NCBI RefSeq assembly: GCF_007859865.1 | Contig: NZ_SJPI01000001.1 | Location: 3,357,241-3,421,240 of the forward strand | DNA length: 64,000 bases | Reading direction: 5' to 3' | DNA from: Rubripirellula amarantea | Lineage (GTDB): Bacteria > Planctomycetota > Planctomycetia > Pirellulales > Pirellulaceae | Notes under the pieces: generated by a model | Seen by the model: the letters and a program-made list of their open reading frames with translations, nothing else | Database searches by the model: none | Told to the model about the DNA's origin: nothing | Translations under genes and position numbers: made by a program | Shown: positions 31,479-58,288 of the stretch, piece by piece | How positions within the stretch are numbered: the stretch's first letter is position 1 | Layout of the letters: each line of letters opens with the position of its first letter

Positions 31479-32846
31479 ATGAGCGACGCTCCCCGCGCAT
31501 TGTCCTCTCGCCGTCAATTCCTGGCGACAACTGCCGCCGCGACTATGGCTGCCTCCGTTCCCTATACGTTCACCGCTTCACGAGCATCGGCGCAATCAAG
31601 TGCCAAGCCGCTTCGTTTTGCGCTGATTGGCGTCGGTGGAAATGGTACCCGGACATCGCCCGTTGGAAAGAAATTTGCGGACTTGGTTGCGCTTTGTGAC
31701 GTCGATGCAAACCACTTGGCCGATGGCAATGAATTGCTATGCGATGGAAAGGCAGACTTGTACGCCGATTATCGCGAAGTGCTCGATCGCGATGACATCG
31801 ACCTCGTGCAAATTTCAACGCCGGATCATTGGCACACCAAAATCTTGATCGAAGCCATGCGTGCCGGCAAAGACGCCTACTGCGAAAAGCCTTTAACGCT
31901 CACGATCGACGAAGGCAAGATGATTCGCAAGGTGCAACAGGAAACGGGACGCGTCGTTCAGGTCGGAACTCAGCAGCGAAGTAGTTTCAACCTATTCAAC
32001 AAAGCGTTGGCCGTGATTTCCGATGGGCGAATCGGAAAGCTAAAGAAAATCACAGTCGGCATTGACGCAGGCGGTTGGAGTCCCGAGATCCCCACCGCGG
32101 AAGTCCCAGAAGGACTCGATTGGGATCGGTGGTTGGGGCCTACGCCTAAGATGCAGTTTCGATACCTAGCAGACGCAAAGCGGAACTACACCAACGGTCA
32201 CACTCACTTTCGTTGGTGGTACGAACATAGCGGCGGTAAATTGACCGACTGGGGCGCTCACCACATCGACATTGCGATGCTGGGGATCGAAGCTGCCGGG
32301 CAAAATAGTGATCCCATTTCCGTAGGCGGTACGGCAAAGCATGACGTTGAGTTTAAAGACGGTATGCCATTGCAGCATGATCGCTACAACACTGCTCGCG
32401 CTTTCGATCTGAACGTTCATTTCGCCGACGGGGATGTGGTTATGAATGTCCGGCACGATGTCGACAATGGGATCTTATTTGAAGGTGAACTCGGTCGCAT
32501 TTTCGTTAATCGTGGCAAGCTGACCGGCAAGGCGATCGAAGAGCTCAAAGCCAATCCTTTGCCAGAGGAAGCAATTGCAAAGGTCTATCGCGGGATGCCA
32601 ATGGTTGGCAACGATCGAGATGCTCACTGGGCTAACCTCATTCACTCGATCGAACATCGTACGTTGCCCATCTCGGACGTCCATTCCCACATGAAAATGC
32701 TGAATGTTTGCCACCTCGCGGGGATTTGTTGTCGTCTGGGGAGAACAATCCATTGGGACCAAGCAACCGAGCAAATCACGGGGGACGATTTGGCAGCGAG
32801 TATGATGAGCCGCCCCTACCGAGAAGGCTACGAGATCGGGTCGTAG
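31479..32846 (+). CDS. Tat-exported Gfo/Idh/MocA family oxidoreductase (first copy)
   Basis: The 455-residue protein begins with a Tat signal (SSRRQFLATTAAATMAASV, RR at 11-12). A Rossmann NAD(P) site follows (LIGVGGNGTR, about 49-58), then the family motifs TPDHWH (114-119) and CEKPLTLTI (from 135). The C-terminal substrate domain includes GLDWDRWLGPTP and LTDWGAHHIDIA. Exported members such as glucose-fructose oxidoreductase hold the cofactor tightly. A sugar C-H or C-OH oxidation in the periplasm is likely; which sugar is unknown. It is the first gene of the sulfatase block, 98 bases before the first sulfatase. A paralogue lies at 50400. Confidence 0.92.
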   Translation: MSDAPRALSSRRQFLATTAAATMAASVPYTFTASRASAQSSAKPLRFALIGVGGNGTRTSPVGKKFADLVALCDVDANHLADGNELLCDGKADLYADYREVLDRDDIDLVQISTPDHWHTKILIEAMRAGKDAYCEKPLTLTIDEGKMIRKVQQETGRVVQVGTQQRSSFNLFNKALAVISDGRIGKLKKITVGIDAGGWSPEIPTAEVPEGLDWDRWLGPTPKMQFRYLADAKRNYTNGHTHFRWWYEHSGGKLTDWGAHHIDIAMLGIEAAGQNSDPISVGGTAKHDVEFKDGMPLQHDRYNTARAFDLNVHFADGDVVMNVRHDVDNGILFEGELGRIFVNRGKLTGKAIEELKANPLPEEAIAKVYRGMPMVGNDRDAHWANLIHSIEHRTLPISDVHSHMKMLNVCHLAGICCRLGRTIHWDQATEQITGDDLAASMMSRPYREGYEIGS

Positions 32847-32944
32847 TGCGAGTCGTCGAAATACTTTATCCATAGTCGAGCCGGTATTGTTGCGTTCTGG
32901 TCTCTGCGCACACGTAGCTTTTCTTTATTCGTTCCCGAGTTCTC

Positions 32945-34729
32945 ATGTTCAATCGCACGATTCGATTCTGCTGTTCATGTTGGTTGCTATTCGCGATCTG
33001 CGTGTCGTTCGCCAGCGATGTGCCGGCTGAGCAGCCCAATGTTGTTCTGATTTTGATCGATGACCTGAGTCACTATGGCGTGACAGCCTACGGTGCTGAC
33101 CGGATCAGCGAAGAGAATGGGAAGTTTACGAATCAGCGTTTCGAAACGCCGAAGATCGATCGACTTGCCCAAACTGGGCTTCGCTGTGACAACGCGTTTG
33201 CTTATCCATTATGCGAACCGACGCGGATTGCCTTGATGTCCGGTCAGTACAACTCGCGGAACTTTCTGCAGTGCAAGGCACAACACGCTTCCGAGATCAC
33301 TTTCGGCGACACGTTCAGCGCAGCGGGGTACGCGACGGGGATCTTTGGAAAGTGGAAGCAGACGCGGGGAACTAAGCTAGTTCACGCCAAGGATTACATC
33401 TTCGAGTTCGGATGGGATGAGTTCTGTTGCTTCGATGTTGTTGGCGAGAGCCAGCGGTATATCAATCCGAGCCTCGTTATTAATGGCGAGATACATAATT
33501 ACGTCGGTCGCGAGGACATTGATCCGCAAACAGGTCGACGTTGGTATGGCCCCGACATCTGCAATCGCCATGCACTTCAATTCATCGACAAGCATAAAGA
33601 TGAGCCATTCTTTTTGTACTATCCGATGCTGCTAGTTCATGACGAACACAAGCCAACGCCGGACACCCAGCCACATTCGTTGTTTGATCAGTTCGATGAA
33701 ACCAAGCACAACAAGGACGGCCACTCCGGCGACGACAAGCGGTTTTTCCCCGATATGCTTGCGTACATGGACAAGCTAATAGGTAAGGTAGTCGACAAGC
33801 TCGATCAGCACGGGTTACGTGACGACACAATCATTGTGGTGATGGGCGACAACGGAACGAAGGAACCGTTCATCCATCACTTGCCTGATGGAACAAGCTA
33901 TCCCGGCGGTAAGGGAGGAAACGTTGACAATGGGCTTCATGTGCCATTGATTCTGAATTGTCCCGGAAAGATCACGGGCGGTAAAGAGAATGACTTCCGC
34001 AGCTACGATGGCTTGGTCGATGTGACGGATATCTACCCGACCATGTGTGAGGCGGTAGGCATCGAATTGCAAACTCCACAAAACATTGACGGGATCAGTT
34101 TCTGGCCGCAGGTGCTTGGCGAATCCGGCGAGCCGAGAAAGAACATCTACACGTGGTACAACGGCAACAAGCCGGCGAGCGACACGTCCACAGTACTACG
34201 ATACGCGTTCAACAAAGACTTCAAACGCTACGCACCCCATGCGAATTTTCCCAACGGTCGATTTTTTGACCTGAGAACCGATCGACTCGAATTGGCTGAT
34301 GAGTTTGATCATACGGTTCGTGTTGCGTGGGCGCACTATCATCGCAGCGGGCTCGATCCGGAAAACCTGGATGCCGAGCAACGGGCGGCTTACGAGTCGC
34401 TCGGTGCGACCATTAAACAGCACGAGTATGTGCCCGTCAGTGGACTACTCATCACAAACGACAACACCACGCTTAGTAAGGGGACATCGATCGGATTAAA
34501 CTGTCTCATCACGCCGTCCCATGCGACTCGTCAGAACCTGATTTGGGAATCGAGTGATCCGTCCATCGCCTCGGTCAACAAGTTTGGCGTGGTCAGTGCA
34601 AAGGAGGTTGGATCGGCATCAATCACGGTGTATTCATGGGACGACGCGACTCCGTTGGCCGCCGGCAAGAAGAGCACCTTTTCACGCGATGGTATCCATT
34701 ACACCTTGAAGTTCGAAGTGGTTCCGTAG
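32945..34729 (+). CDS. Secreted sulfatase with C-terminal bacterial Ig-like (BIG2) domain
   Basis: The 594-residue protein has a signal peptide (about 1-25). The formylglycine motif is C90-E-P-T-R, within AYPLCEPTRIALMSG, and the metal-site start PNVVLILIDD is present. Residues about 505-585 form a BIG2-like domain (PVSGLLITNDNTTLSKGTSIGL ... IWESSDPSIASVNKFGVVSAKEVGSASITVYSWDD), probably a spacer or carbohydrate-contact module. Sulfatases of family S1 remove sulfate esters from sugars; this one acts outside the cytoplasm. It stands 98 bases after the oxidoreductase gene and 44 bases before the next sulfatase. Confidence 0.93.
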   Translation: MFNRTIRFCCSCWLLFAICVSFASDVPAEQPNVVLILIDDLSHYGVTAYGADRISEENGKFTNQRFETPKIDRLAQTGLRCDNAFAYPLCEPTRIALMSGQYNSRNFLQCKAQHASEITFGDTFSAAGYATGIFGKWKQTRGTKLVHAKDYIFEFGWDEFCCFDVVGESQRYINPSLVINGEIHNYVGREDIDPQTGRRWYGPDICNRHALQFIDKHKDEPFFLYYPMLLVHDEHKPTPDTQPHSLFDQFDETKHNKDGHSGDDKRFFPDMLAYMDKLIGKVVDKLDQHGLRDDTIIVVMGDNGTKEPFIHHLPDGTSYPGGKGGNVDNGLHVPLILNCPGKITGGKENDFRSYDGLVDVTDIYPTMCEAVGIELQTPQNIDGISFWPQVLGESGEPRKNIYTWYNGNKPASDTSTVLRYAFNKDFKRYAPHANFPNGRFFDLRTDRLELADEFDHTVRVAWAHYHRSGLDPENLDAEQRAAYESLGATIKQHEYVPVSGLLITNDNTTLSKGTSIGLNCLITPSHATRQNLIWESSDPSIASVNKFGVVSAKEVGSASITVYSWDDATPLAAGKKSTFSRDGIHYTLKFEVVP

Positions 34730-34773
34730 ACGGACACTACTGGCTCAAAAAGATTATTCCCAAGTTTGAAGTT

Positions 34774-37197
34774 ATGAATAGATTCCGTCTCGTTAGGTTC
34801 GTCATCGTCTTCGCAGTCACATGGCTTGTGTTCGGTGGCGTCGATGCGATTGCTGAACGCCCCAGCATTTTGTGGATTTATGTAGATGACATGAGTGATT
34901 GGATGGGATGCTATGGCGATCCGATTGCCCAGACTCCCCACATCGATAGTCTTGCGCAGGAAGGCGTCCTGTTTGAAAACGCCTTCATGCCAGCGCCAGT
35001 TTGTTCGACGACTCGATCAGCGCTGATTACCGGAACGATGCAAACAACGTATGGGTTGCACCAGCACCGAACGATGATCAAAAAGCCGCTCCCCAATGGG
35101 GTCGTGACGGTGCCAGAATTATTTCGCGAGGCGGGTTACCTGACGTTCAATGAAGCGAAGGATGATTACAACTTCGAGCGTGACCGAAACCTGATGTATT
35201 CGTCGGAGTTTACTCGGCCCACTCGCAAGCAAGTGAACGCGCATATGATCGGTCGCGAAGTGTCTTGGCTAAAGCAATTGCAGGGCAAGCCGTTCTTTGG
35301 CCAAATTCAGCTTAAGGGAGGAAAGATCGAAGGCGAAACGGGATCAAAGTTTCCCGCAAAGAGTCGTGTTCCGGACGATCAGGTTGCGGTTCCACCTCAG
35401 TACCCCGACCATCCCGTGTTTCGAAATGCCATCGCTCGTCACTACGAACAAATTGCGGAAACGGACGCTCAAGTGGGCGCGATCATTGCGGGGTTGAAGG
35501 AGTTCGGTTTGTGGGACAACACGATTGTGTTTTTCTTTACCGATCATGGTAGTCCTTTGCCCCGAGCTAAACAGTTCCTCTACGAAGACGGTACCAAAGT
35601 GCCGCTAATTGTACGTTGGCCAAAGAGCATGCAACTTCCCCGTGGAAAATCTCGCTCGGACCTCGTCAGCGGAATCGACATCACTGCAAGTTCACTCGGC
35701 TTAGCTGGAATGTCCGTGCCCCCATTCATGGAAGGACGCGATCTGTTTTCAGAGGATTATGAGCCGCAGGAATACGTGATATCGGCTCGCGATCGAATGG
35801 GCAACGCGATTGATCGCAACCGTACCGTTCGGTCAGCAACGTTTCGATATATCCGCAACTACAAAACGGATCGAGCGTTGTATCAACCCCAGTATCGAGA
35901 CAAGTATGCAACCTTCAAGACGCTACGGCAATTGCTCGCTCAAGGAAAGCTGACTCCGCTGCAAGCATCGTACCACGACGCAGCGCAACGTCCGGAAGAA
36001 GAATTGTACGACCTCGTGAACGATCCTCACCAAACCGTCAACTTAGCGGATGATCCAGAATACGCATCGGTGCTGAAGGGACACCGCGATTATCTCCAGC
36101 AGTGGGAAGAGGCCACTGATGACCAGGGTCGCTATCCCGAAAGCGAGGAGTCGCTACGGTTGGTGTACGAATCGGTTACGGGCGATTGTGTTTCACCCGA
36201 GTATGACTTTCTGAAAATTCGCAAGACAAATGACAACGGCAGCGAAGCGAATGATGGTGCTGGCGACACGACGTCTCTGCAACCGAAAGCTGAAAAGCCG
36301 AAGTCAAAGCCGAAGATCATCCAGTACCCGGATGCTCTCGTATGGACCGACGCAAAGTTGGCGGCGAAGGAGTTTCCAGGTTTCGAGTTCATCGGCGAGT
36401 ACTCCCAAGGAAATCGCTTTTTGCAAGCGACACCATCGGGCAAAAGGTTCTACCTTTCCATCTATCAGGGCGGCTTGCCAGGAACAGGTTGGGATGGCAG
36501 TCGGGTTGATCACGAGTGGGTCGAGCTGGATGCGATGAAGAGTCGCTTGCAAGGTTGGGAAAAGATCGATCGCAGCAAGAACGTGGTAGGTAAGCAACCG
36601 CCCGATAACGCCGTCGTTTTGTTCGATGGATCGGACGTGAGCGCCTGGAAGAATGCAAAGATCGACAACGGAACGCTTCAGGCGGGAGCGGCGACGAAAC
36701 GCAGCTTTCGAGATTTCACGTTGTACCTGGAATTCATGTTGCCGCTGAAGCCGGAGCCCGAGATCAGTCACCCGCACCGCGGAAACAGTGGCGTCTTCGC
36801 GGTCGGAGCATACGAGGTGCAGATCGCTGACACGTTCGGAATCGATCCTGATCCACTAGCATGGCAAGAAATAGATCTGCTCAAACCAGTCGACACATGG
36901 TGCGGTAGCATCTATGGAATCCGAGCAGCAAAGTTCAACATGTGCTTGCCGCCACTGACTTGGCAAAGCATGGAGATCGAGTTCAAGGCGGCACGTTTCG
37001 AAAACTCCGTCAAGGTTTCCGACGCCGAGATTTCCGTGATCCACAACGGCGTGAAGGTTCACGACCAATTCCATGTTCCCCAAGGCACCGGTGGTGGGCC
37101 GGCCGGACCGCGACCCGAAGTGGCTGAAGGCCCGATCTATCTGCAAAACCATGGCAATCCCAATCGGTTTCGTAACATTTGGATTGTGACGAGGTAG
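34774..37197 (+). CDS. Sulfatase - DUF1080 fusion with unusual active-site motif
   Basis: The ATG at 34774 starts a signal peptide (1-28) and gives 807 residues. Residues about 29-490 form an S1-type sulfatase domain (SILWIYVDDM, and FFTDHGSPLPRAK). The FGly-motif position reads C77-S-T-T-R: the residue two after Cys is Thr, where the consensus C-x-(P/A)-x-R has Pro or Ala. After a charged linker (about 495-600), residues about 612-807 form a DUF1080 domain (VVLFDGSDVSAWKNAKIDNGTL, RGNSGVFAVGAYEVQIADT, GPIYLQNHGNPNRFRNIWIV), the family that includes 3-keto-disaccharide hydrolases. The fusion joins desulfation and keto-glycoside cleavage in one exported protein; activity is inferred only from the domains. 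Confidence 0.9.
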   Translation: MNRFRLVRFVIVFAVTWLVFGGVDAIAERPSILWIYVDDMSDWMGCYGDPIAQTPHIDSLAQEGVLFENAFMPAPVCSTTRSALITGTMQTTYGLHQHRTMIKKPLPNGVVTVPELFREAGYLTFNEAKDDYNFERDRNLMYSSEFTRPTRKQVNAHMIGREVSWLKQLQGKPFFGQIQLKGGKIEGETGSKFPAKSRVPDDQVAVPPQYPDHPVFRNAIARHYEQIAETDAQVGAIIAGLKEFGLWDNTIVFFFTDHGSPLPRAKQFLYEDGTKVPLIVRWPKSMQLPRGKSRSDLVSGIDITASSLGLAGMSVPPFMEGRDLFSEDYEPQEYVISARDRMGNAIDRNRTVRSATFRYIRNYKTDRALYQPQYRDKYATFKTLRQLLAQGKLTPLQASYHDAAQRPEEELYDLVNDPHQTVNLADDPEYASVLKGHRDYLQQWEEATDDQGRYPESEESLRLVYESVTGDCVSPEYDFLKIRKTNDNGSEANDGAGDTTSLQPKAEKPKSKPKIIQYPDALVWTDAKLAAKEFPGFEFIGEYSQGNRFLQATPSGKRFYLSIYQGGLPGTGWDGSRVDHEWVELDAMKSRLQGWEKIDRSKNVVGKQPPDNAVVLFDGSDVSAWKNAKIDNGTLQAGAATKRSFRDFTLYLEFMLPLKPEPEISHPHRGNSGVFAVGAYEVQIADTFGIDPDPLAWQEIDLLKPVDTWCGSIYGIRAAKFNMCLPPLTWQSMEIEFKAARFENSVKVSDAEISVIHNGVKVHDQFHVPQGTGGGPAGPRPEVAEGPIYLQNHGNPNRFRNIWIVTR

Positions 37198-37668: not shown

Positions 37669-39192
37669 ATGACTAAATCTGCTTTTCTTCTAAGCCTTTT
37701 TGTGTTCGCATGGTCTGTATCTTGCGTTGCCGAAGAGCGGCCGAATATTGTGCTGATCATGGCCGATGACTTGGGCCTTGGTGACGTCAACTATTACCAA
37801 GAAAAGTTCCAAGGCCATAAGTCTCAGGTGCCTACTCCTGCGATGGACGCGCTTGCTCGCGATGGCATGTGGTTCACCGACGCTCATTCCGCCACGTCGC
37901 TGTGTTCACCGACTCGTTACTGCGTCATGAGCGGCAACATGAATTACCGCAGCTATGCTCCGTGGGGTGTATGGGGTTCGTTTCGGGCAAGTCCTTTCAA
38001 GCCGGGCGAAGCGACACTGGGAAGCGTGGCTAAGTCAGCGGGGTACTCGACCGGATTTATCGGCAAGTGGCATCTCGGCGGTGACTTCTTGGATTCAGAA
38101 ACTGGCCAGATTTATCGAAAGAACGAACGCAACGAACCGGGGGCAACAGTTGACTTGACTCGAATGGTCGGCGGTGGTCCTCAATCGGTTGGTTTCGACT
38201 ACAGCCTCACGTTGCCTTGTGGAATCCAGGGGCCAACCTACACGGCTTACGAAAATGGCGATTGGTTGCCACTGAACGAAGATTCGGAAATCATCTTCCT
38301 CGACAAGACGACCGCGATTGATCCCAAGTTTGTTTCGGATAAGGGGCCCGGACTTGGTGACTCGCATTGGAACGCTCGCGAGATCGGAAAATTGCTGTCA
38401 GCTAAGGCGGTGGACTTCGTCGACAAGCGGGCCGGTAAGGAGCCGTTCTTTCTGTGCTACTGGAGTCCGCACGTTCACTTGCCGCACACGCCGACCGATG
38501 AGTTTGACGGTCTGAAGATTGCCGGCACGACACCGACGAACCATCTTGATACGCTGCGAGATCTCGATCAACAAGTCGCTCGCATTGTGCAGTCGCTCAA
38601 AGCAAACAAGGTCTACGACAACACCTTGATCATCTTTACCTCCGACAACGGTGGATTAGGGATCAAAGCGACTGTCGAAGCCGGGCATGATTCCAGCGGC
38701 GAATGGCGCGGGTTCAAAAATTCACCGCATGAAGGCGGTCACCGAGTACCTTTCGTCGCCGTATGGCCAGGGCATATTGAACCCGGCAGCGTGAGCGATG
38801 ATACGGTGATCAATCAGGACACGTTGGCGACGATGGCTAGCTTGTTGAACGTGAAAGTTCCCGCTGACCAAGCGAAGGACTCATTGGACCTGATGCCCTT
38901 GCTAACCGGGACCGGCAGTTTTCAGCCTCGCGAGTATCTGATGATGCAGGCGGGAAGTCAGAACGAAGTGATGTTCCGAAAGGACGGTTGGAAGCTCATC
39001 CTAAAAAGCGATCATAAAGTTTCGAAATTCGAACCCATCGCATTGTTCAATTTGAATGATAATCCGACCGAAAATGAGGCGGAAAACAAAGTGGATGACC
39101 CCGCCCAGGCCGATCGCGTGAAGCGGCTGCGTGAGGAGTATTTGCGGATTCGAAACAGTGGCGAGCGAACGACACCGGTGATTGGAGCTTGA
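37669..39192 (+). CDS. Secreted sulfatase (arylsulfatase A-like)
   Basis: The 507-residue protein has a signal peptide (about 1-21). The conserved start is [16 protein letters not shown], with the FGly motif C79-S-P-T-R in SLCSPTRYCVMSGN. Further S1-family motifs are GKWHLGG and FTSDNGGLG. This is a complete S1 sulfatase with all usual elements. Its substrate cannot be assigned from the sequence alone; expressed next to the other sulfatases it probably handles one linkage type of a mixed sulfated polysaccharide. A stretch of imperfect 16-17-base repeats lies just downstream. Confidence 0.94.
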   Translation: MTKSAFLLSLFVFAWSVSCVAEERPNIVLIMADDLGLGDVNYYQEKFQGHKSQVPTPAMDALARDGMWFTDAHSATSLCSPTRYCVMSGNMNYRSYAPWGVWGSFRASPFKPGEATLGSVAKSAGYSTGFIGKWHLGGDFLDSETGQIYRKNERNEPGATVDLTRMVGGGPQSVGFDYSLTLPCGIQGPTYTAYENGDWLPLNEDSEIIFLDKTTAIDPKFVSDKGPGLGDSHWNAREIGKLLSAKAVDFVDKRAGKEPFFLCYWSPHVHLPHTPTDEFDGLKIAGTTPTNHLDTLRDLDQQVARIVQSLKANKVYDNTLIIFTSDNGGLGIKATVEAGHDSSGEWRGFKNSPHEGGHRVPFVAVWPGHIEPGSVSDDTVINQDTLATMASLLNVKVPADQAKDSLDLMPLLTGTGSFQPREYLMMQAGSQNEVMFRKDGWKLILKSDHKVSKFEPIALFNLNDNPTENEAENKVDDPAQADRVKRLREEYLRIRNSGERTTPVIGA

Positions 39193-39199
39193 AACAATT

Positions 39200-39263: not shown

Positions 39264-39477
39264 CGAGTTGCACACCGAGCACCACGTTTTGGTCGTTCTC
39301 GCAGAATTGTGCAGAAAAGTTTCCAATTTGGGCGAGTGGGTGCGATTACCTAGTCGTATCACCACGCGACCACTCGCGTTTTCAATGCTTGGCACGGCCT
39401 AGCCTCGAAGATTTCAGCCGTTTGGCGAAGTCGAACGCGGTGAAATGTCGAGTATCCCCCTTTGCCACCCCGCCTCA

Positions 39478-41351: not shown

Positions 41352-42662
41352 ATGAACGCGAATCGTCGCCGCGTAAGCCGGCGGAACTGCTTCAAAGCGG
41401 CCGGCGTGTCATTGTCGCTGCCGTTCCTTGAGTCCTTGCCAGTTCATGCTCAAAAACCAAAACGATCGGGCAAGGATGCGGAGGTTGCCTATAGCGATCA
41501 ACCAGCCAGTAGTGCTGCGCGTTTGGTTTGCATCGGTGTTGCATTAGGCATGTATCCCGGGGAATGGAATCCATCACAAGAAGGACGCGATTACCGGGCG
41601 CCTCGCTTGATCGAGCCGCTCAACGAATTGCGAAACGATTTCACGTTGCTGTCCAATATCGACCACCCCGGCGTGGGCGGCGGACACAAAGGTACGCCAG
41701 CATTCCTGTCCGGTGTTTACAAGCCAGAGTTTGTCGGTCAGGCGATTGTCGTTCGTAACCAGATCACGCTCGATCAGTTTGCAGCCCAACACTTGGGAAA
41801 CGGCACTCGATTCTCGTCGTTGCAGCTCAGTGCTGCCGAGCTTGGCGAGTTCGACGCCCTTTCTTGGAACGAAAAGGGAACTCCGCTACCTTCGCAATCG
41901 GATCCGAGCAAAGTATTCAACGCTTTGTTCGTTCCGGATGCCAAGGACGAAGCCACCGCGATGAAGCTTGGGCAAAGTGTCCTGGACTTGATTCATGAAG
42001 ATGCGACCGCATTCCAACGAGAGATCTCACGCAACGATCGTGATCGTATGGATCAGTACATGTCTTCGGTTCGCGATGTCGAAAAAAGAATCCAACGACA
42101 ATTGCAGTGGACCGAAAAGCCCAAGCCTCACGCACCGCCGCTGGCTGAGCGTCCGACAACGTATCATGAGAACTTGGACTTAATCTTGGAACTCGCCGCG
42201 ATCGCACTGCAGACCGATTCAACACGTGTGGTCTCGGTTTCGTTGCCCGGTCAAGGCTTGCCAATCGAGACGAACAATCTTCGCACGGCGAACTATCACA
42301 ACCTGTCGCATCATGGGATGGCCGCCGACGCGGTTCGTGATTTGATCGAAGTCGAGTCGATGCATTCTCGGTCACTCGCAAAATTTCTGAAGCGTTTGAA
42401 ATCCGTTCGAGCTGGTGACGGGACGCTTCTGGATCACACCCAGGTTCTATTTGGTAGCGGACTTGGTAACGCGAGTTCACATTCCAATCGCGATCTTCCC
42501 GTCCTGATCGCCGGTGGCGGATATAAGCACGGACAACATGTTCGTCTTGAAGAGGGCACACCGCTTTGCAACCTATTTGTCACGATGCTGCAGCGAATGG
42601 GAATGGAAGTGGATTCGTTTGCTGGAAGCCGTGGCAACGCCAACCAATGGTTGGGGGTGTGA
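41352..42662 (+). CDS. DUF1552 Tat-exported protein (second copy)
   Basis: The 436-residue protein starts with a Tat-type leader (NRRRVSRRNCFKAAGVSLSLPFL). It shows the same DUF1552 blocks as the copy at 24176 (FTLLSNIDHPGVGGGHKGTPAFLSGV, FGSGLGNASSHSNRDLPVLIAGGGYKHG). The ALQTDSTRVVSVSLPGQGLP block is also shared. It precedes its DUF1592 partner, overlapping it by one base (TGATG), whereas in the other pair DUF1592 comes first. The pair is embedded within the sulfatase block, which supports a role in handling the same substrate. Activity is unknown. Confidence 0.92.
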   Translation: MNANRRRVSRRNCFKAAGVSLSLPFLESLPVHAQKPKRSGKDAEVAYSDQPASSAARLVCIGVALGMYPGEWNPSQEGRDYRAPRLIEPLNELRNDFTLLSNIDHPGVGGGHKGTPAFLSGVYKPEFVGQAIVVRNQITLDQFAAQHLGNGTRFSSLQLSAAELGEFDALSWNEKGTPLPSQSDPSKVFNALFVPDAKDEATAMKLGQSVLDLIHEDATAFQREISRNDRDRMDQYMSSVRDVEKRIQRQLQWTEKPKPHAPPLAERPTTYHENLDLILELAAIALQTDSTRVVSVSLPGQGLPIETNNLRTANYHNLSHHGMAADAVRDLIEVESMHSRSLAKFLKRLKSVRAGDGTLLDHTQVLFGSGLGNASSHSNRDLPVLIAGGGYKHGQHVRLEEGTPLCNLFVTMLQRMGMEVDSFAGSRGNANQWLGV

Positions 42663-45127: not shown

Positions 45128-45164
45128 GCTGTTAAGCCTTGCTTGAATCTTCCGGTGATCTGAC

Positions 45165-45194
45165 GTGTTCAGATCTATCGCGTTCAAATCTATC
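45165..45194. repeat. 15-bp direct repeat, two units
   Basis: GTGTTCAGATCTATC is followed directly by GCGTTCAAATCTATC (13 of 15 bases alike), in the space between the cytochrome gene and the next sulfatase. Its centre includes two copies of ATCTATC. Confidence 0.7.
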
Positions 45195-45249
45195 AGCTAT
45201 CGATACCGAAGCGTTCGGTCGTTACTACCCAATGGATGTCTTGAATTCT

Positions 45250-46917
45250 ATGAACCAGAAAATTGTCAGTGTGTTGACGTTGGCCATCGCACTTGTTTGC
45301 ATACTCGGTGGACCAGTGAAGGCCCAACCGAATGATCGTCCTAACTTTGTCTTCGTGCTGACGGATGATCAGTCTTATGGAATGATGGGATGCGATGGGA
45401 ACGAGGTCACCAAGACACCGCATCTCGATCAGCTAGCTAGGGACGGCGTATACTTCGATCGTGCATACGTCACTAGTGCGATTTGCACTCCGAGTCGAAT
45501 TTCGATTCTGCTTAGTCAGTTTGAGCGAAAGCATGGCGTGAACTTCAATTCTGGCACGAGTGTTGCGCCGCAGGCATGGGCCAAGTCATATCCGGTCATG
45601 ATGCGAGAACATGGTTACTACACCGGCTACGTCGGCAAGAACCATGCGCCCATTGGTGATGGTGGTTACACCAGCGGCTTGATGGAAAAGTCATTTGACT
45701 ATTTCTATGCCGGCCATGGTCACATCAAGTTTTACCCGAAAGACCTTCACGAGATTTTTAAGCACGCAGAAGCGGATACCCAGGTAGAGATTGTCGGTGA
45801 AAGTGCGACGGATTTCCTTTCCGATCAACATCGACTCGAAGGCGCAATCCGATTTCTTGAATCTCGTCCCTCGGGCAAGCCGTTCTGCCTGAGTATCTGT
45901 TTGAACCTGCCACATGATGCAGGTACCAGCACGATGCAGATGCGACAGAGTGATGACGAAATCTATAAATCGCTTTATCGTGACGTCGAAATTCCTTTGC
46001 CTGACCACTACGTCGCAAAGGAGGACATCAAGAATCCTAAGCTACCGCCGGACTTGTTGAAAACAAAGGAACGTCAGACGGGATACGATTGGGTCGACAA
46101 TCCCGAGACCTGCATCGAGCGAATCACACGTCAGATGCAAGCGTTGACTGGCATCGACCGAATGGTCGGCGATATTCGCGAGAAGCTGGCCAAGGAAGGT
46201 GTTGATCAGAACACGATTATCGTATTCAGTAGCGATCATGGGCAATTCCAAGGGCAACACGGTTTGGGTGGCAAAGCACTTTGTTATGAGCAAACAACTC
46301 ATGTTCCGATGATCGTCTTTGATCCTAAGGCGCCTCACGCAGAATCAGGACGCCGGATCTCGGACTTGGTCCAGAGTATCGATATCGCCCCCACGATGTT
46401 GGACTACGCCGGGATTGATGCTCCGATTGAGTTCCAGGGAAAAAGCCTTCGCGGGTTGATCGACGGCAACGCAGGCCCGGTTCACGAATTCATTTTTACC
46501 GAGAACCTGTGGTCAACGCATTTTGGTAATCCTCGCATTGAAGCGGTTCAAGACAAGCGATGGAAATACATTCGCTACTACAAGAATGACACCTTTCCGG
46601 CGTCCGAGAAGATTCTTGTTGCGAAGCAGTTAAATATTCCTGTCGGCAAGATGCTTTACAATGTGCACGATGATGGAATCGCGGTTTACCGTCACTATGT
46701 TGAATCGCCACTGCAGGGCGAGGAACCTGTTTACGAGGAACTTTATGACATTGAAAATGATCCTGCTGAAGTTAACAACTTGATCGACCAAGATCAGCAC
46801 AGCGAAGTTCTCGAGCGTTTGAAAGCTGCATGGAAGCAAAAGCTGATAGAAGCAAGAGGGACGGGAGTTCCGAAGGTGATTCGCTACACTGCCGACAATG
46901 GCGCCAAGCCGGGGTGA
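45250..46917 (+). CDS. Secreted sulfatase
   Basis: The ATG at 45250 starts a classical signal peptide (MNQKIVSVLTLAIALVC) and gives 555 residues; an ATG at 45232 adds six residues and is the alternative. S1 features are PNFVFVLTDDQSYGMMGCDGN, the FGly motif C79-T-P-S-R (AICTPSRISILLSQ) and FSSDHGQFQGQHGLGGK. The LLSQ after the FGly motif replaces the common LTGR, seen in only some S1 members. It is followed at 58 bases by another sulfatase. Its substrate is unknown. Confidence 0.92.
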   Translation: MNQKIVSVLTLAIALVCILGGPVKAQPNDRPNFVFVLTDDQSYGMMGCDGNEVTKTPHLDQLARDGVYFDRAYVTSAICTPSRISILLSQFERKHGVNFNSGTSVAPQAWAKSYPVMMREHGYYTGYVGKNHAPIGDGGYTSGLMEKSFDYFYAGHGHIKFYPKDLHEIFKHAEADTQVEIVGESATDFLSDQHRLEGAIRFLESRPSGKPFCLSICLNLPHDAGTSTMQMRQSDDEIYKSLYRDVEIPLPDHYVAKEDIKNPKLPPDLLKTKERQTGYDWVDNPETCIERITRQMQALTGIDRMVGDIREKLAKEGVDQNTIIVFSSDHGQFQGQHGLGGKALCYEQTTHVPMIVFDPKAPHAESGRRISDLVQSIDIAPTMLDYAGIDAPIEFQGKSLRGLIDGNAGPVHEFIFTENLWSTHFGNPRIEAVQDKRWKYIRYYKNDTFPASEKILVAKQLNIPVGKMLYNVHDDGIAVYRHYVESPLQGEEPVYEELYDIENDPAEVNNLIDQDQHSEVLERLKAAWKQKLIEARGTGVPKVIRYTADNGAKPG

Positions 46918-46975
46918 TAATGTCGGTCTCGAGTTTGGTCCGCCACCCATGTTTTGTCTTCCTAGGGACTTTCCC

Positions 46976-48397
46976 ATGAATCGTTTCTCACTGTTTCTCG
47001 CCGCGATCGTTGCGCTCAACTTCGGTTGGTCAGCCGCTGGCGTTGCTGATCACCGACCTAATGTTGTGCTCATAGTCGCGGATGACCTGGGTTACAGTGA
47101 TGTTGGATTTAATGGTTGCAAAGAGATACCGACTCCGCACTTAGACGCGTTGGCAAAACATGGCGTGGTGTTCGAGTGTGGCTACGCTTCGCATCCGTAT
47201 TGCAGTCCGAGTCGCGCAGGGTTGTTAACTGGGCGATACCAACAGCGTTTTGGGCATGAGTGCAATCCCGAGCCTGACGCGCGTTTAGTGGACGATCAGG
47301 CACCCGGTTTGCCGTTGTCGGAAACGACGTTGGCCAACGTGATGAAGGACTCGGGCTACGTGACCGGCGCGATTGGAAAGTGGCATTTGGGTGACGCACC
47401 CCAGTACTGGCCCAATCGACGCGGCTTCGACGAATGGTTCGGCTTTAGTGCCGGTGGTCTGAGTTACTGGGGTGACCTCGGAAAAAAGCCTGTCGGATTG
47501 GGAGTGCATCGAGGTGATGAACCAGTCGATCCAGAAACGTTGACCTACCTTACCGATGACTTTTCAAACGAAGCGGTACGTTTCATTGATCGGCACCAGA
47601 ACGAATCGTTCTTTCTCTATCTCGCCTACAATGCACCCCACGCACCTGATCAGGCGACTAAGAAGCACTTGTCCAAGACGCAGCACATCGAATATGGCGG
47701 AAGAGCAGTTTACGGCGCGATGGTGGCTGGAATGGATGAAGGCATCGGTCGCGTGATTGCCAAGTTGAAGGAAGCAAAGATAGATGACAACACTCTCGTG
47801 ATCTTTTACAGCGACAACGGAGGGCGAAAAGAACACGCGGTGAACTTTCCTTATCGTGGTCACAAGGGAATGCTATTCGAGGGTGGGATCCGTGTACCGT
47901 TCTTAATGACTTGGCCTGGAAGAATTCCGGCCGGAATAACGCACTCGTCGCCAATTTCCGCGTTGGACATTTTCCCCACTGTACTGCAGGCTGCTGGAAT
48001 TACACCCAATGACAGACCGGAACTCGATGGCATCGACGTCATGCCTTCAATTGCCGCTGACGAACGGGATACGCTAGGAAACTCGCGGCGGCTTTTCTGG
48101 CGTTATGCGATGGGCGACGGTCAGTACGGTTTCGCGGTGCGCGACGGCAATATGAAATTGGTTCGAAGTGCCTATAAGAACAAAGATCTGCTATTCGATC
48201 TTTCGAGTGATCCGTGGGAACGAAACGACTTGGCGGCGGAGCGGCCCGAGACGGTTGATCGTCTCAAACGATTGATTCAACAATGGGACGCGCAAAACGT
48301 ATCACCAAAATGGATCGACAAGCATGGACCCAATGTGCTTAGCGAGGAAGCGGCACGACAGAAGTTAATCAATGCGGCCGCACGCGGCGAACGGTAA
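46976..48397 (+). CDS. Secreted sulfatase, paralogue of the one at 54876
   Basis: The ATG at 46976 starts a signal peptide (about 1-25) and gives 473 residues. S1 features are PNVVLIVADDLGYSDVGFNG, the FGly motif C76-S-P-S-R in [28 protein letters not shown] and FYSDNGGRKEHAVN. The stretch around the FGly motif closely matches the sulfatase at 54876 ([21 protein letters not shown]), so these two belong to the same subfamily. It is followed 21 bases later by the esterase/GH43-like gene, suggesting cotranscription and action on the same oligosaccharide. Confidence 0.94.
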   Translation: MNRFSLFLAAIVALNFGWSAAGVADHRPNVVLIVADDLGYSDVGFNGCKEIPTPHLDALAKHGVVFECGYASHPYCSPSRAGLLTGRYQQRFGHECNPEPDARLVDDQAPGLPLSETTLANVMKDSGYVTGAIGKWHLGDAPQYWPNRRGFDEWFGFSAGGLSYWGDLGKKPVGLGVHRGDEPVDPETLTYLTDDFSNEAVRFIDRHQNESFFLYLAYNAPHAPDQATKKHLSKTQHIEYGGRAVYGAMVAGMDEGIGRVIAKLKEAKIDDNTLVIFYSDNGGRKEHAVNFPYRGHKGMLFEGGIRVPFLMTWPGRIPAGITHSSPISALDIFPTVLQAAGITPNDRPELDGIDVMPSIAADERDTLGNSRRLFWRYAMGDGQYGFAVRDGNMKLVRSAYKNKDLLFDLSSDPWERNDLAAERPETVDRLKRLIQQWDAQNVSPKWIDKHGPNVLSEEAARQKLINAAARGER

Positions 48398-48418
48398 GTA
48401 CGAAAGAGAATCTATCAG

Positions 48419-50410
48419 ATGACGAATTTTAAGTTGTTTGAGCGAATCGCGTTTCCTGTGATCTTTCTTCCCATGTCATTGGTCGTAGCTGAGGACATTC
48501 GGATAGACAAGTTTGCCTCGCAATCACTTGCGGTGCCTGAGCTTTCCGACGGTGTTCCTGCAGCCGGCAAGCGTGTTGCCGTGACGCCACCGGAATATGA
48601 GGGCACAGACGTCTTCCATACGCTCTACCTTCCCGCGACCTGGAAACCGGACGGCAAGCAGCTGCCGATCATTTTCGAGTACACCGGAAACTTCTTTGCG
48701 AAGTCGGGGTCAACCGGCAAGCCTGAAGACGCCGCCTTAGGCTTTGGGCTGTCCGCTGGTCAGTATATTTGGGTTTCGCTTCCGTACATCAACAAGACCG
48801 GTGATGGCAACGAAGTGACTTGGTGGGGCGATGAGGACGCGACCGTTGAATATGCAAAGCGAAATGTCCCTCGGATTATTCAGCAATACGGTGCTGATCC
48901 ATCAGCGGTGATTCTGTGCGGGTTCTCGCGAGGTGCGATTGGCGTCAACTATCTCGGTTTACACGATGACGAAATATCTGGATTATGGACTGCGTTTTTG
49001 ACGCACGATCATTTCGATGGAGTGAAGGAATGGGGAACCAAGTGGGGATCGCCATTGGATCGTTACCGAGCCGACGCGACAACACGTTTGCAGCGAGTTG
49101 GGAATCGACCGTACTGGGTTAGTCAAAATGGAAGCGATCAATCGTCTGAGCAATTCATTCGTTCGTCGGTGACTGACGCCAGTTCGTTCACGTTCGGGCA
49201 TGTGAATACGTCTAGCATTCTTGGACCGTTTCCCAACAATTTTGCGAAGGCTGCGCATACGGACCGCTGGATGCTGAAACCGAGCGAGTATCGCAATCAG
49301 ATTTGGAATTGGATGAATGGTGTGACTGGGGGAACGGCCGCGCGTTTAACAAGCGAACGCAGTCTTGATGCAAACCCCGGATCTGAATTGGATTTTAAGT
49401 CAATGATTGGGCGAGTGCTGGAGTCAGCAAAGTTCATTGACGAAGACTTCTACATTTGGGGTGGAAGCATGGTGCGAGACGCCGACGGTAAGTGCCACTT
49501 GCTGTATAGCCGATGGCTTCGTGAGCTTGGACACAACGCGTGGGTTACGCATTCCGAAATTGCTCACGCCGTTGCTGATGAGCCGCTTGGCCCTTACCAA
49601 CATGTTGACGTCGCCCTTCCCGCGCGAGGACCTGAGTACTGGGATGGCATGTGCACTCATAACCCCACGGTGCACGAGTTCGATGGCAAGTACTACCTTT
49701 ACTACATGGGGAACTTTGGCGACGGCAACGCTACTAAGAAACTCAATTCGATCCATCGCAATAACCAACGCATCGGTGTTGCGGTCGCCGATCATCCGTC
49801 TGGACCTTGGAAACGTTTTGATAAGCCGCTGATCGATATTACGCCCGAACCTGGCGCTCATGACGAGCTTATGACGAGCAACCCGTCGATACTGCGACGG
49901 TCCGATGGAATGTACGTCCTGATCTACAAAGCGGTCGGAACGAAAGGACCGCTTCCGTTCGGTGGACCCGTCATTCACTTAGCGGCAACATCCATGTCAC
50001 CGACGGGGCCGTTCGTCAAAGAAATGAAGCCACTGTTTACGGCGCCGGGCGTAAAGTTTCCCGCCGAGGATCCTTACGTTTGGTCGGATGGAGAACGATG
50101 TTGGGCGATCGTCAACGACCACAAAGGTCATTTCAACCAAACCGGTGAAGATTCGCTAGCACTATTCACGTCCCCGGATGGTTTAGACTGGGACGTTGCG
50201 TCGAATCCGTGGGTGTTACAGCGGAAGTTAACCTGGGCCGATGGAACCGAACAATCGTTTCATCGCCTCGAACGTCCGCAGCTTTGGCTAGAAGACGGTG
50301 TGCCGAGCGTATTGTTCTGTGCTGCCGAGGAAACCAAAGAGATGGCTCATTCATTCAACGTACACATTCCACTCCTTCCCAAGAATTCGGATCCGAAAAA
50401 TGGCAATTGA
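48419..50410 (+). CDS. Exported esterase / GH43-like glycosidase fusion
   Basis: The 663-residue protein has an N-terminal signal-like hydrophobic segment (about 8-24). Residues about 45-310 are an alpha/beta-hydrolase with a GxSxG-type nucleophile elbow ([10 protein letters not shown]170). Residues about 335-660 form a five-bladed propeller of the GH43/GH117-like clan ([66 protein letters not shown]). I infer that the first domain removes ester groups and the second cleaves the bared glycoside; the second half alone resembles glycosidases common in marine bacteria. It overlaps the next oxidoreductase gene by 11 bases. The GH family number cannot be fixed by eye. Confidence 0.82.
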
Positions 50411-51896
50411 TAATGTTCAAAGCGTTTCGACAACGTCCGCCACACTAGCGGGAACAGCAGACTCGCGACGTCGGTTTTTGAAGCAGGCTGCCGTCGCCGG
50501 CGCCGCTGTGATGAATCCGTATGTCTGGACCAGCCATTCCGCCAGGGCAGCGGACGCCAATAGTAAACCGACCATTGCCGCGATTGGCGTCGGCGGCAGT
50601 CGTGGTCGTTACAACCAAGGCCGTGCAATCGCGAACAGCGCATCGAAGTACGGGCAGATGATCGCGGTATGTGACGTCGATGCGTTGCACAACGACGAAT
50701 TCAACGCCGCTTACGATGGAAAGCTCAACAGGTACCAGGATTACCGCAAACTATTCGAGAAGGAAAAGCCTGATGTCGTCACGATTGGTACTCCCGATCA
50801 CTGGCACGTTCCCATCGCCTTGCACGCGTTGGCGCACGGCGCAGACGTGTATTGCGAAAAGCCACTTACGTTGACCATTGAAGAGGGGGAATTGATTCGC
50901 AAAGCGGCAGAGGAATCTGATCGCGTGTTTCAGGTTGGCACGATGCAACGGAGTTGGGACCTCTTCATGTATGCAACCGCAATCGTCCGAAGCGGACGGA
51001 TCGGGCAGGATGTGAAGGCTCATTGTGCGATTGATCCGGCTCCAACCGGCGGGCCGTTTGATACTGCGGCGGTTCCCGAAGGTCTGGATTGGGATCTATG
51101 GTTAGGCCCAACCGCGAAAAAGGACTACTGCGAGGAACGCCGTCGTTTCTTTCGCTGGTATCTCGAATATTCCGGCGGCAAGATGACCGATTGGGGCGCT
51201 CACCATGTTGATATCGCACAATGGGCATTGGGGCTTGATCACACTCCTGTCGAGCGTGTGTCGGGTTCTGGAAAAATGACGCCGATCGTTCCTGACGACT
51301 TCAATTGGAAGAAGTTCCTTGACGGCGAAGCTGATCTACCCAACGGCTATAACGCTGCTACGGAATTCCACATCAATCTGGACTTCGAAGGTGGGCGAGC
51401 GATTTCGGTCAATCATGAATACGAGTCAGGGACTACTAAGTTCGGCAACGGAATTCTGTTTGAAGGCGACAAGGGAAGGATCTTTGTCAATCGTGCCAAA
51501 CTACAAGGGTCACCGATCAAAGATATCTTTGGCGACAACCTAGAGAAGAAGTATCAGGCGGATGGTTCCGCTACGGACAATTTTCAGGAGTGCTTCGCCC
51601 GAGTGGACGATGCGACACGAGATGAGTTCACGGCAGCTTTTACCAAGCTCAACAAGGGCAAGCCAGTTACGAATCATATGAAAAACTTCTTCACCTGCAT
51701 CGAAGATCGATCGGAACCCATGTCTGACGTCTCCAGTCACGTCAATTCGATGAACTCGCTGCACATGTGCAACATCATGTTGATGCTGGGGCGTGACCTG
51801 AAGTGGGATGGTAAGACACGCGACTTTGGAAGCGATGATCAAGCCAATGCATTGATGGGGCGAAAGCGTCGCAAAGGTTTCGAGTTGAACGCTTGA
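50400..51896 (+). CDS. Tat-exported Gfo/Idh/MocA family oxidoreductase (second copy)
   Basis: The ATG at 50400, inside the end of the preceding gene, gives 498 residues and puts a Tat signal near the N-terminus ([21 protein letters not shown] at 23-25). The Rossmann site ([13 protein letters not shown]), [16 protein letters not shown] and [17 protein letters not shown] motifs parallel the copy at 31479. An insertion near residue 285-300 ([18 protein letters not shown]) and a longer C-terminal region separate the two. Both are exported and bracket the sulfatase block. The gene is translationally coupled to the esterase/GH43-like gene, so it probably acts on the same sugar. Confidence 0.92.
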
Positions 51897-52271
51897 TCGC
51901 TTCGTCTGCGGCTATTTAATAAGCCAAATCGGTTTGGCTAAGTTTGTATTGCAGGTCGACGTGATTTCGCTGTTCGTCGTTTTTGTATCTGGACAGGGCG
52001 GTTGTAATCTGTGTTGACCTTCGTCGGCAGCGATGAGGAAAGAGAACGCGATCGGCAGTTCACATCACCGAGAGCAACTTTTGCTCACTTGCAGAAGTTC
52101 TAAGATCGCTTGGTCTCCGATCCGAGCTAGCGGACCATTGATGCAAGGTTAGACATCGATCACTCACTTCCTTTGCCCATCGACTTTCTGTGCGCACCGG
52201 TTATCGGTGTGCGTCGAACATCGGGAACCGTACCCTCGGTTCTCAACTACTACTTTGAACAAACCATCATT
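51897..52271. other. Intergenic region before the sulfatase at 52272
   Basis: A 375-base gap without a supported gene. It starts with a hairpin (51922-51939) and otherwise shows no repeat. The promoter of the following sulfatase should be here. Confidence 0.4.
51922..51939 (+). terminator. Possible terminator hairpin
   Basis: AGCCAAA and its exact reverse complement TTTGGCT flank a TCGG tetraloop, 25 bases after the stop of the second oxidoreductase. A modest T-rich run (AAGTTTGTATT) follows. The stem is short, so the call is tentative. Confidence 0.45.
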
Positions 52272-54569
52272 ATGAAAATAGTTCTTTACTTCGCGATGAT
52301 CATCACCGCGACGGTTGCCTCGCAAGCTCACGCGTTGGATCGTCCCAACATCATTCTCGTTTTCGCCGATGATATCAGTGCACGAGAACTGCCGTTGTAT
52401 GGTTCATCGGTCTGGAGTCCTCCCACTGGTGGCAACACCTCGGATGTCGCCTTTCGAGCCAACACTCCAGCATTGGACCAGATGGCAAATGAAGGCTGCT
52501 GGGTTGAGACGGCTTGGGCGTCGGTCGTTTGTTCGCCCAGTCGCGCCATGATGATGACTGGTCGCTATGCACATCGACATAAATGGTGGAATAACAAAGA
52601 TAAGGGACGCTACCTCGATGCCAAAGGGAAGCCCACAGTATGGCCACTCTACGAAAGTTCTCCCGTTCTTATTGGTCATGTCGCCCAGCGTGCTGGCTAT
52701 GCGACGTATTGGGCGGGAAAAACTCAAATGGCCGGTGACCTTCGTAGGTTTGGTTTTGATCAGGGCTGCTTCACGCCCGGTGAACTTTCGGACAAAGACA
52801 ACCCGTACACCGACTTCAAGATGTACGAAAAGAAGGTTGATGGAACGAAGTTGCTATTCAATTCGGACACGGATCAGCAGATTGACAGCTACCTGCAACA
52901 CGGTTGGTATTGGAAACCCCACGTTCGTTTGATGAAGCATGCTGGAAACAGGAATGGATTTCAGTGGTGGCCTCATACTTTGGAATCCCAAGCAGAATTT
53001 GGTTTGAACACTTACGGTCCCGACGTTGAACTCGATTTCATTTTCGACTTTATGGAACGTCAACAAGCCGATGGCAAGCCGTTCTTCATCTACCACACTT
53101 CGCACCTCGGGCACGATGCCTTCGATTGGCTGCATCCGGAATCTAAATCCAAATGGCCCGGGACTCCCGTGGTTCACTGGGATGGGAAAGGCTACACGCG
53201 GGATCAGCCAAGTGTCACAGGCGACGAGGGCGTGTACGACGATCATGGCACCATCACAAGTCCTGGGATTCACCACCATGTGAATTACCTGGACTATCAA
53301 ATGTGGCTCTACCGCAACAAGCTGACGGAAATGGGGATCGCCGATAACACAGTGTTGATCTTCTGCGCTGATAATGGCACTAGCGGATACGGAAAGAACA
53401 GTTCGGATCGTCAGAAAGGAACGCACGTACCGCTGATCATTCTAGCGCCCGGCATGACAAAGCAAGGCCGGCAGGATGTGTTGGTCAATATGTCCGATAT
53501 GCTTCCCACGATCGCGGAAATGACGGGCGGGAACGTCCCTAGCGACTACGAGGTCAATGGTGAAAGTCTCGTCCCATTCTTGTACACCGATAAGTCGTCG
53601 CATCGTGAATGGGTGTACGGGTACAACGGCGACGACCAAATCATTCGAGGCGACTTGGTGATGAAAGATGGCAAAGGAAAATGGTGGGACGTTTCAACTC
53701 AGCCTGACGACCTGATCAGCTTCCCTGAAATAAAAGACTGGTCCGAAGTAAGCGAAGCTCATCGGACCCAACGTGATGAATTGCTGGCCGTATTGCCGCA
53801 GTTCGATTTGCATGCGAGCGAACATGATGCTCCGGGGATTGAGTTGCCAGCTTTGGCAGCCAAGCCGAAGAAACAGAGGTCGAGAACGAAGAATCCCGCT
53901 GGCAAGGCATCAAAAGCCAAAGTTTCAAGCGGCGCCGGCGAGCGGAAATCATTGTTCTCGGACAATTTCGATGGACGCGAACTTCCGGGGGACGACTACA
54001 CAATCGCGAGGAGTGCCGAGGGAGCGTGGACGATCAGTGATGGCGTGCTCTACGGTCGCCAAACCAACGACGACCACGGCGCGGTGATACGCAAACACAT
54101 GGACTTTAAGGATATCGATATCGAATTCGACTTCCGGTTTAACGGGGGAACTCGCTTCAATTTTGTGCTCGACGATCAAAACGAAAAGTCAGTGCACGCT
54201 GGTCACATTTGTCGGGTATCCCTGACGCCCAAGAGAATCTCGATCAGTGACGACAAAAATGGCTCGATGAACCTTGAAGTGCGAAAGCAACGCCAAGACA
54301 AGAATTTGAACGCCGATGCGAAAGCCAGCTTGCAGACAGTCCTCGCTGCGACTCAGGCTTCTGCGGCTGTTCAACTCGACGAAGGAAAATGGCATCACGC
54401 CAGAATTCAGTTGAAAGGCGACACCTTGTCGGCGTTTATTGACGGAAGCGAAATCACTCGATTGAAGTCGCCTGGGATCGACCATCCCACAAAAACGAAA
54501 TTCGGAATGACCGTCAATGGATCGTCCATCGACTTTGACAATCTCAATGCCTTCTTAGTGCCGCGTTGA
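52272..54569 (+). CDS. Secreted sulfatase with C-terminal lectin/DUF1080-like domain
   Basis: The ATG at 52272 starts a signal peptide (1-22) and gives 765 residues. S1 features are PNIILVFADDISARELPLYG, the FGly motif C87-S-P-S-R (VVCSPSRAMMMTGRYAHRHKWW), and FCADNGTSGYGKN. After residue about 555 (start of a Lys/Ser-rich linker KKQRSRTKNPAGKASKAK), residues about 575-765 form a beta-sandwich like the DUF1080/LamG group (FSDNFDGRELPGDDYTI, IEFDFRFNGGTRFNFVLDD, WHHARIQLKGDTLSAFIDGSEI). It is the second sulfatase here with such an appended domain; this one keeps a normal FGly motif. Confidence 0.92.
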   Translation: MKIVLYFAMIITATVASQAHALDRPNIILVFADDISARELPLYGSSVWSPPTGGNTSDVAFRANTPALDQMANEGCWVETAWASVVCSPSRAMMMTGRYAHRHKWWNNKDKGRYLDAKGKPTVWPLYESSPVLIGHVAQRAGYATYWAGKTQMAGDLRRFGFDQGCFTPGELSDKDNPYTDFKMYEKKVDGTKLLFNSDTDQQIDSYLQHGWYWKPHVRLMKHAGNRNGFQWWPHTLESQAEFGLNTYGPDVELDFIFDFMERQQADGKPFFIYHTSHLGHDAFDWLHPESKSKWPGTPVVHWDGKGYTRDQPSVTGDEGVYDDHGTITSPGIHHHVNYLDYQMWLYRNKLTEMGIADNTVLIFCADNGTSGYGKNSSDRQKGTHVPLIILAPGMTKQGRQDVLVNMSDMLPTIAEMTGGNVPSDYEVNGESLVPFLYTDKSSHREWVYGYNGDDQIIRGDLVMKDGKGKWWDVSTQPDDLISFPEIKDWSEVSEAHRTQRDELLAVLPQFDLHASEHDAPGIELPALAAKPKKQRSRTKNPAGKASKAKVSSGAGERKSLFSDNFDGRELPGDDYTIARSAEGAWTISDGVLYGRQTNDDHGAVIRKHMDFKDIDIEFDFRFNGGTRFNFVLDDQNEKSVHAGHICRVSLTPKRISISDDKNGSMNLEVRKQRQDKNLNADAKASLQTVLAATQASAAVQLDEGKWHHARIQLKGDTLSAFIDGSEITRLKSPGIDHPTKTKFGMTVNGSSIDFDNLNAFLVPR

Positions 54570-58286: not shown

Positions 58287-58288
58287 TA

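Follow-up and report, generated by a model that had tools for sequence, protein, structure and literature searches.

Introduction

A pathway of glycoside 3-oxidation followed by beta-elimination has reportedly been described in Bacteroides by Nasseri and by Kastner in 2024 (BT2156-BT2159 region). For the use of lactose by Caulobacter, a DUF1080 protein has been proposed as a periplasmic 3-ketolactose hydrolase (available extracts of PMC9007349). Here we analyse a 64 000-nucleotide stretch of the 6.95 Mb genome of Rubripirellula amarantea (C1:3357241-3421240, referred to as the window), in which a Gfo/Idh/MocA oxidoreductase bearing a twin-arginine (Tat) motif, GFO1, stands next to a run of sulfatase genes, one of which, S2, ends in a DUF1080 domain, here called D1080.

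The locus resembles the Bacteroides pathway in combining a Gfo/Idh/MocA dehydrogenase candidate, nearest to the structures 8tdf and 8tdh, with a DUF1080 partner that has the conserved histidine. It differs from that pathway in its sulfatase setting, in the predicted Tat export of its oxidoreductase and in the shuffling of DUF1080 among fusion partners, and the full four-gene set was not recognised here. In Bacteroides, deletion of BT2157 or BT2158 caused no growth defect on raffinose-family sugars, according to the extracts of PMC11501099. With Caulobacter the locus would share extracytoplasmic oxidation at C3 paired with a secreted DUF1080 protein; the dehydrogenase there, however, is the membrane-bound LacABC rather than a putatively soluble, Tat-exported Gfo protein, and the extracts of PMC9007349 report no sulfatases.

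The folds of D1080 and of the C-terminal domain of a further sulfatase, S7, are also those of CBM66 and LamG-type binding modules, but D1080 keeps the DUF1080 residues, whereas the S7 domain, which is without them, may belong to this class. Loci for the degradation of carrageenan and agar carry S1_19 sulfatases and GH117. The present locus is like them in having a sulfatase near the carrageenan sulfatases (S6) and a GH117-like propeller, yet in its 31-56 kb region we recognised neither a carrageenase nor an agarase, and the putative oxidative pair is found there instead. We found no description of a DUF1080-sulfatase fusion, of the GFO1-D1080 pair or of this locus in the open-access literature. 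While the chemistry is already known from Bacteroides and as a proposal from Caulobacter, its apparent link with sulfatases and the shuffling of the DUF1080 domain would be new, the activities themselves being candidate assignments.

GFO1 and D1080 are inherited together

GFO1 and D1080 were searched for in 241 genomes of the family, with up to nine candidates per genome scored for D1080 and up to six for GFO1 and in a phylum sample, so that misses are possible. For D1080, 24 genomes gave 24 matches, all with E values no higher than 1.6e-132 and widely separated from the next match at 1.1e-72. The GFO1 clade, similarly distinct, comprised 28 matches of at least 69% identity in 27 genomes, the next being at 60%. 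Both were present together in 21 genomes, while D1080 occurred without GFO1 in three (G195, G183, G184) and GFO1 without D1080 in six (G209, G203, G165, G188, G032, G189), an overlap to which Fisher's test, ignoring kinship, assigned 7e-22. The two were also inherited together within genera. In g1, g79 and g43, picked since all their members were visible in the result tables, the overlap gave P 3e-7 with genomes treated as independent: the identical four of 22 genomes carried both in g1, D1080 was present in eight and GFO1 in ten of 13 in g79 with an overlap of eight, and the same single genome of 15 had both in g43. Outside this test, the respective numbers for D1080 and GFO1 were six and seven in g76 (overlap four), two and one in g77 (overlap one), one and two in g12 (overlap one), and one and one, in the same genome, in each of g14 and g72.

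Co-inheritance was frequently accompanied by adjacency. GFO1 and D1080 were at most 5 kb apart in 12 of the 21 genomes (G000, G003, G211, G201, G200, G202, G205, G194, G159, G187, G180, G067), and in ten of these 12 the two frames were next neighbours on one strand; in the other nine they were at least 45 kb apart or on different contigs. In 15 of the 24 genomes the piece around D1080 contained at least one Gfo gene, whatever its type. The gene order of G203 is like that of its relatives, although a D1080 match is missing; GFO1 there directly adjoins a LamG-like domain gene (L153, 9192-10644) where the relatives have D1080 in between, as though D1080 had been lost.

Beyond the family, D1080 was matched at E 1e-90 only in its own genome among 392 genomes sampled from the phylum, and a contig scan with two short peptide patterns, which may have missed some, returned eight loci, all planctomycete. 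The search across Planctomycetota that an earlier note on this DNA had suggested gave GFO1 with D1080 in 21 of 241 genomes of the family, and no further D1080 match at that threshold in the phylum sample.

The neighbourhood of D1080 was compared in the 23 other genomes using pieces no longer than 20 kb (35 kb in G001) and matches of at least 50% identity over half the query; the counts are lower bounds, as several pieces stop early at contig ends. The C-terminal domain of S7 recurred in 16 of the 23, GFO1, S5 and the sulfatase part of S7 in 11 each, the GH117-like domain in ten, S6 in eight, S3 and the esterase-like part in three each, S8 in two and the sulfatase part of S2 in one. S1, S4, the second oxidoreductase GFO2, and the DUF1552 and DUF1592-type genes had no match in any of these pieces. 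The earlier note had considered both oxidoreductases as keto-sugar partners, a role for which GFO1, co-inherited and retaining the expected residues, stays a candidate; GFO2 is not supported as a conserved partner, and the DUF1552/DUF1592-type genes were dropped as electron acceptors.

Residues of the putative dehydrogenase and lyase

GFO1 has the Rossmann and C-terminal domains of the Gfo/Idh/MocA family, with an E-K-P and a D-x-x-x-H type motif, which we take to be of the catalytic type. Both Tat arginines, E-K-P and T-D-W-G-A-H-H were invariant in all 28 GFO1 rows (the window and 27 from 26 other genomes, identity at least 65%), and a stricter Tat pattern was present in 22 of 27 rows. The twin-arginine motif reads SRRQFL in GFO1 and SRRRFLK in GFO2. 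For both proteins the best PDB chains by sequence were 8tdf and 8tdh, which are presumably the structures from the 2024 work of Nasseri. The best of the nine NCBIfam models listed was likewise the same for both, NF058561 (BT_2158_fam glycoside 3-dehydrogenase), the scores of 132.8 bits for GFO1 and 133.8 bits for GFO2 falling far short of its cut-off of 750.

The sulfatase-DUF1080 fusion that the earlier note had placed at 34774-37197 was borne out, residues 613-804 of the 807 of S2 forming a full PF06439 domain (117.4 bits, with the cut-off at 26.8; profile positions 2-186 of 187). That note had made its proposal hinge on the catalytic residues of D1080, and the conserved Glu, Gln and His were found unchanged in all 24 genomes. 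From chain ranges and an ungapped C-terminal alignment, His793 is the counterpart of His275 in the 3-keto-glycoside lyase of B. thetaiotaomicron (3osd/8rr2), the H275N form of which is described as hydration-deficient in the extracts of PMC13273386. Conservation suggests that the Glu and Gln may be catalytic too; putative active-site positions of the DUF1080 family are marked in a figure of PMC9765024, the available text of which gives no residue names. GFO1 and D1080 thus retain the residues that a glycoside 3-dehydrogenase and a 3-keto-glycoside eliminase/hydratase, respectively, would be expected to have.

S7 (52272-54569) is the sulfatase that the earlier note had seen fused to a related beta-sandwich. 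Its C-terminal domain exceeds the curated PF06439 cut-off (48 bits against 26.8), but has R-F-N, Ile, Arg and Asn in place of the N-S-G, Glu, Gln and His of the family, and a fold search returned lectin-type folds, DUF1080 structures being interspersed with these and not ranked ahead of them. It was hence rejected as a 3-keto enzyme and is probably a lectin-like module.

Fusion partners of D1080

D1080 had a frame to itself in 15 of the 24 genomes and was fused in eight, five times with sulfatases. The sulfatase partners were S2 (G000, G001), S3 (G208), an S6-like sulfatase (G185), and S7 together with an S6-like sulfatase (G195); other partners were a GH117-like domain (G179), a GH2 N-terminal domain (G012) and, by our own reading where Pfam shows DUF1080 only, a propeller-like domain (G187). 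The D1080 of G199 is preceded by an N-terminal stretch of 180 residues weakly like the end of S3 (36%), and that of G003 comes immediately after a sulfatase, from which it is separated by a stop codon and by what appears to be a signal sequence of its own. The GH117-like domain was itself found fused to S4 in three genomes (G208, G199, G187) and to S6 in four (G200, G202, G201 partly, G203). On the D1080 tree, in which the outgroup branches are long, fusion labels clustered no better than shuffled ones, so that we claim only that the fusion is labile, without a number of events.

Individual frames illustrate these arrangements. In G195, a single minus-strand frame of 1451 residues (L131, 9511-13863) holds two sulfatase domains and D1080. 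D1080 follows the GH2 N-terminal sugar-binding domain in G012 (L053, 7930-9507), and GFO1 follows a truncated GH2 in one frame in G194 (L132, 4788-7937); both arrangements give the impression of a beta-galactosidase trimmed back next to the pair.

Proposed pathway and alternatives

We judge it about as likely as not that the locus encodes an exported system for degrading sulfated glycans in which the cleavage step is partly oxidative. The most likely assignment is that GFO1 is a Tat-exported glycoside 3-dehydrogenase and D1080 a 3-keto-glycoside eliminase/hydratase, the two acting on desulfated oligosaccharides. GFO1 would fold round its nicotinamide cofactor in the cytoplasm before export by Tat, and the sulfatases would remove sulfates first, leaving a desulfated oligosaccharide on the terminal sugar of which GFO1 could oxidise the free C3 hydroxyl. 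D1080 would then split the glycosidic bond by beta-elimination and re-add water, freeing a 3-keto sugar, whose reduction by GFO1, by another Gfo protein such as GFO2 or by a cytoplasmic enzyme would recover the hydride. Fusion of D1080 to a sulfatase would couple desulfation with cleavage.

The substrate may be a carrageenan-like or related sulfated galactan, a best guess that we hold with low confidence. The nearest PDB entries of S6 among the leading 45 sequences listed were 6bia, 6prm, 6b0k and 9hh3 (S1-19); the sulfatase is called carrageenan-sulfatase-like on the strength of these closest solved relatives. The propeller end of the 48419-50410 protein was nearest to anhydro-galactosidases of GH117 type, matching 5ta7 (E 5.9e-9) and 4ak5 (E 4.7e-8) over some 70 residues (best stretch 87-157 of 344). 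The similarity of S5 does not point to a sulfated galactan, its best PDB chain being a sulfatase that its description places in a GH78 rhamnosidase protein. In carrageenan-like galactans galactose is linked via C3, and a free C3 hydroxyl arises only at the non-reducing end after the neighbour has been removed, so that the oxidative pair would be an exo-acting step.

Three other explanations were weighed. D1080 could be a lectin or CBM66-type carbohydrate-binding module that docks sulfatases and glycosidases on the polymer, with GFO1 serving another step of the same pathway. We consider this possible but doubtful. In a fold search with D1080, CBM66-type rows scored level with enzymes, so that the search cannot separate an enzyme from a binding module. 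A docking module sits less easily, however, with the 15 genomes in which D1080 stands alone, often directly behind GFO1, or with a Glu, Gln and His that are invariant in D1080 and lost from the more module-like domain of S7. That D1080 is instead an ordinary glycosidase on the unoxidised polymer, with GFO1 for the released monosaccharide and no 3-keto-glycoside formed, seems to us distinctly unlikely. According to the extracts of PMC5673643, DUF1080 is over-represented in planctomycetes, and DUF1080 glycosidases acting on the xanthan backbone were proposed there from transcriptomics. Gfo folds, moreover, hold many activities, at least 45 PDB sequences matching GFO1 at E 1e-5 or better; among the 45 listed none is named alpha-N-acetylgalactosaminidase, though a glycosidase role is still compatible with them. 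Yet where an activity is named for a DUF1080 structure in the PDB, it is 3-keto-glycoside eliminase/hydratase or 3-keto-2-hydroxy-glucal hydratase, the equivalent of His275 is kept in D1080, and the nearest Gfo structures to GFO1 are 8tdf and 8tdh.

The remaining explanation accepts a 3-keto system but assigns it to a common unsulfated glycoside, the sulfatases being mere neighbours from a separate pathway. With 76 sulfatase matches in the genome such neighbours are common, and in the G106 and G194 pieces none of the sulfatases of the set reaches 50% identity. Against it stand the D1080-sulfatase fusions in five of 24 genomes, of four makes, and the recurrence of the S5 and S7 sulfatases beside D1080, each in 11 of 23; we therefore give this explanation the least credit of the three.

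The pairing of GFO1 and D1080 among sulfatases suggests that oxidation, and not ordinary hydrolysis, is how these bacteria cleave some sulfated sugars. A wider proposal, which we put forward only tentatively, is that Pirellulaceae break down a sulfated galactan with an extracytoplasmic hydride-borrowing module that is closed with respect to its cofactor. In it, a Tat-exported Gfo protein with bound nicotinamide would oxidise the C3 of a terminal galactose, a shuffled DUF1080 eliminase/hydratase would make the cut in place of a beta-galactosidase, and the released 3-keto sugar would receive the same hydride back; a sulfatase or a GH117-like enzyme would be joined to DUF1080 where required. As far as we are aware, most of the sulfatase, Gfo/Idh/MocA (36) and DUF1080 (23) matches of this genome are without a known role. 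If the proposed pathway is true, part of this repertoire would gain one, the cleavage of desulfated sugars could dispense with the glycosidase that would be expected, and the oxidative route for glycans, itself a recent discovery, would reach marine sulfated polysaccharides. The pair is also present in loci of Rhodopirellula europaea 6C, which should allow tests in an organism that is in culture.

Organisation of the locus

The genes from GFO1 to S8 are given in their plus-strand order in Table 1, and related gene sets are present in further genomes. With 76 sulfatase matches in 6.95 Mb, some genes being counted twice, the eight sulfatase-domain genes within 32945-56321, or 24 kb, constitute a cluster. 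Judged from place and frame length, only two of the 23 PF06439 matches of the genome share a frame with a sulfatase match, and both are in the window. The earlier note had Tat-exported Gfo genes at both ends of the sulfatase run; GFO1 opens it (31479-32846) and both genes have Tat motifs, but GFO2 does not close it, as S7 and S8 follow.

Table 1. Features of the locus, with positions in the window
Feature	Position	Strand	Remarks
Extracytoplasmic function (ECF) sigma factor (30512-31060) and FecR-like gene (28830-30515), divergent from GFO1	28830..31060	-	likely regulators
GFO1, Tat-signal Gfo/Idh/MocA oxidoreductase, candidate glycoside 3-dehydrogenase	31479..32846	+	PF01408 61.8 bits, PF19051 52.9 bits
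S1, sulfatase with Big_2 domain	32945..34729	+	motif CEPTR
S2, sulfatase fused to DUF1080	34774..37197	+	PF00884 134.7 bits, PF06439 117.4 bits
D1080 module of S2	36301..37197	+	His793 at 37150-37152
S3, sulfatase	37669..39192	+	fused to D1080 in G208
S4, sulfatase	39445..41307	+	GH117-like domain fused to S4 in G208, G199, G187
DUF1552 and DUF1592/cytochrome-type genes	41352-45127	+	inside sulfatase run
S5, sulfatase	45139..46917	+	best PDB chain 6hr5
S6, sulfatase near iota- and kappa-carrageenan sulfatases	46898..48397	+	6bia E 2.9e-94, 6prm, 6b0k
Esterase-like N-terminal part (our own reading) and GH43/GH117-like five-bladed propeller	48419..50410	+	PF04616 36.4 bits
GFO2, second Tat-signal Gfo/Idh/MocA	50400..51896	+	PF01408 70.5 bits
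S7, sulfatase with C-terminal lectin/LamG-like domain (53937-54566)	52272..54569	+	PF06439 48 bits, DUF1080 residues absent
S8, sulfatase	54834..56321	+	74% identity in G001

S2, for which a full-length match of 76% identity was found in G001, is without the usual C/S-x-P/A-x-R (CxPxR) formylglycine motif, although the sulfatase domain itself scores 134.7 bits. The motif reads CSTTR in the window, G001 and G027, CSAAR in G003 and G012, and CSTSR in the S2-like sulfatases of L058, L059, L061 and L062; the S2 homologues of L051, L052, L054 and L056 lack the usual motif too. The best start of GFO2, by our own reading, is 50400, within the 3' end of the preceding gene.

The sigma factor and FecR-like pair are likely regulators of the locus; the pair adjoins GFO1 in L052, L144 and L147, with S5 intervening in L138. 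Three sets of cytochrome-type genes with DUF1552 or DUF1501 partners lie around or inside the cluster (21554-25489, 41352-45127, 58046-62745). Elsewhere in the same genome, C1:1608152-1620828 and C1:1933395-1941943 are further clusters of DUF1080 and sulfatase matches, the first also with a Gfo match, and in each of them two sulfatase matches fall in a single frame (of 1065 and 978 residues, respectively).

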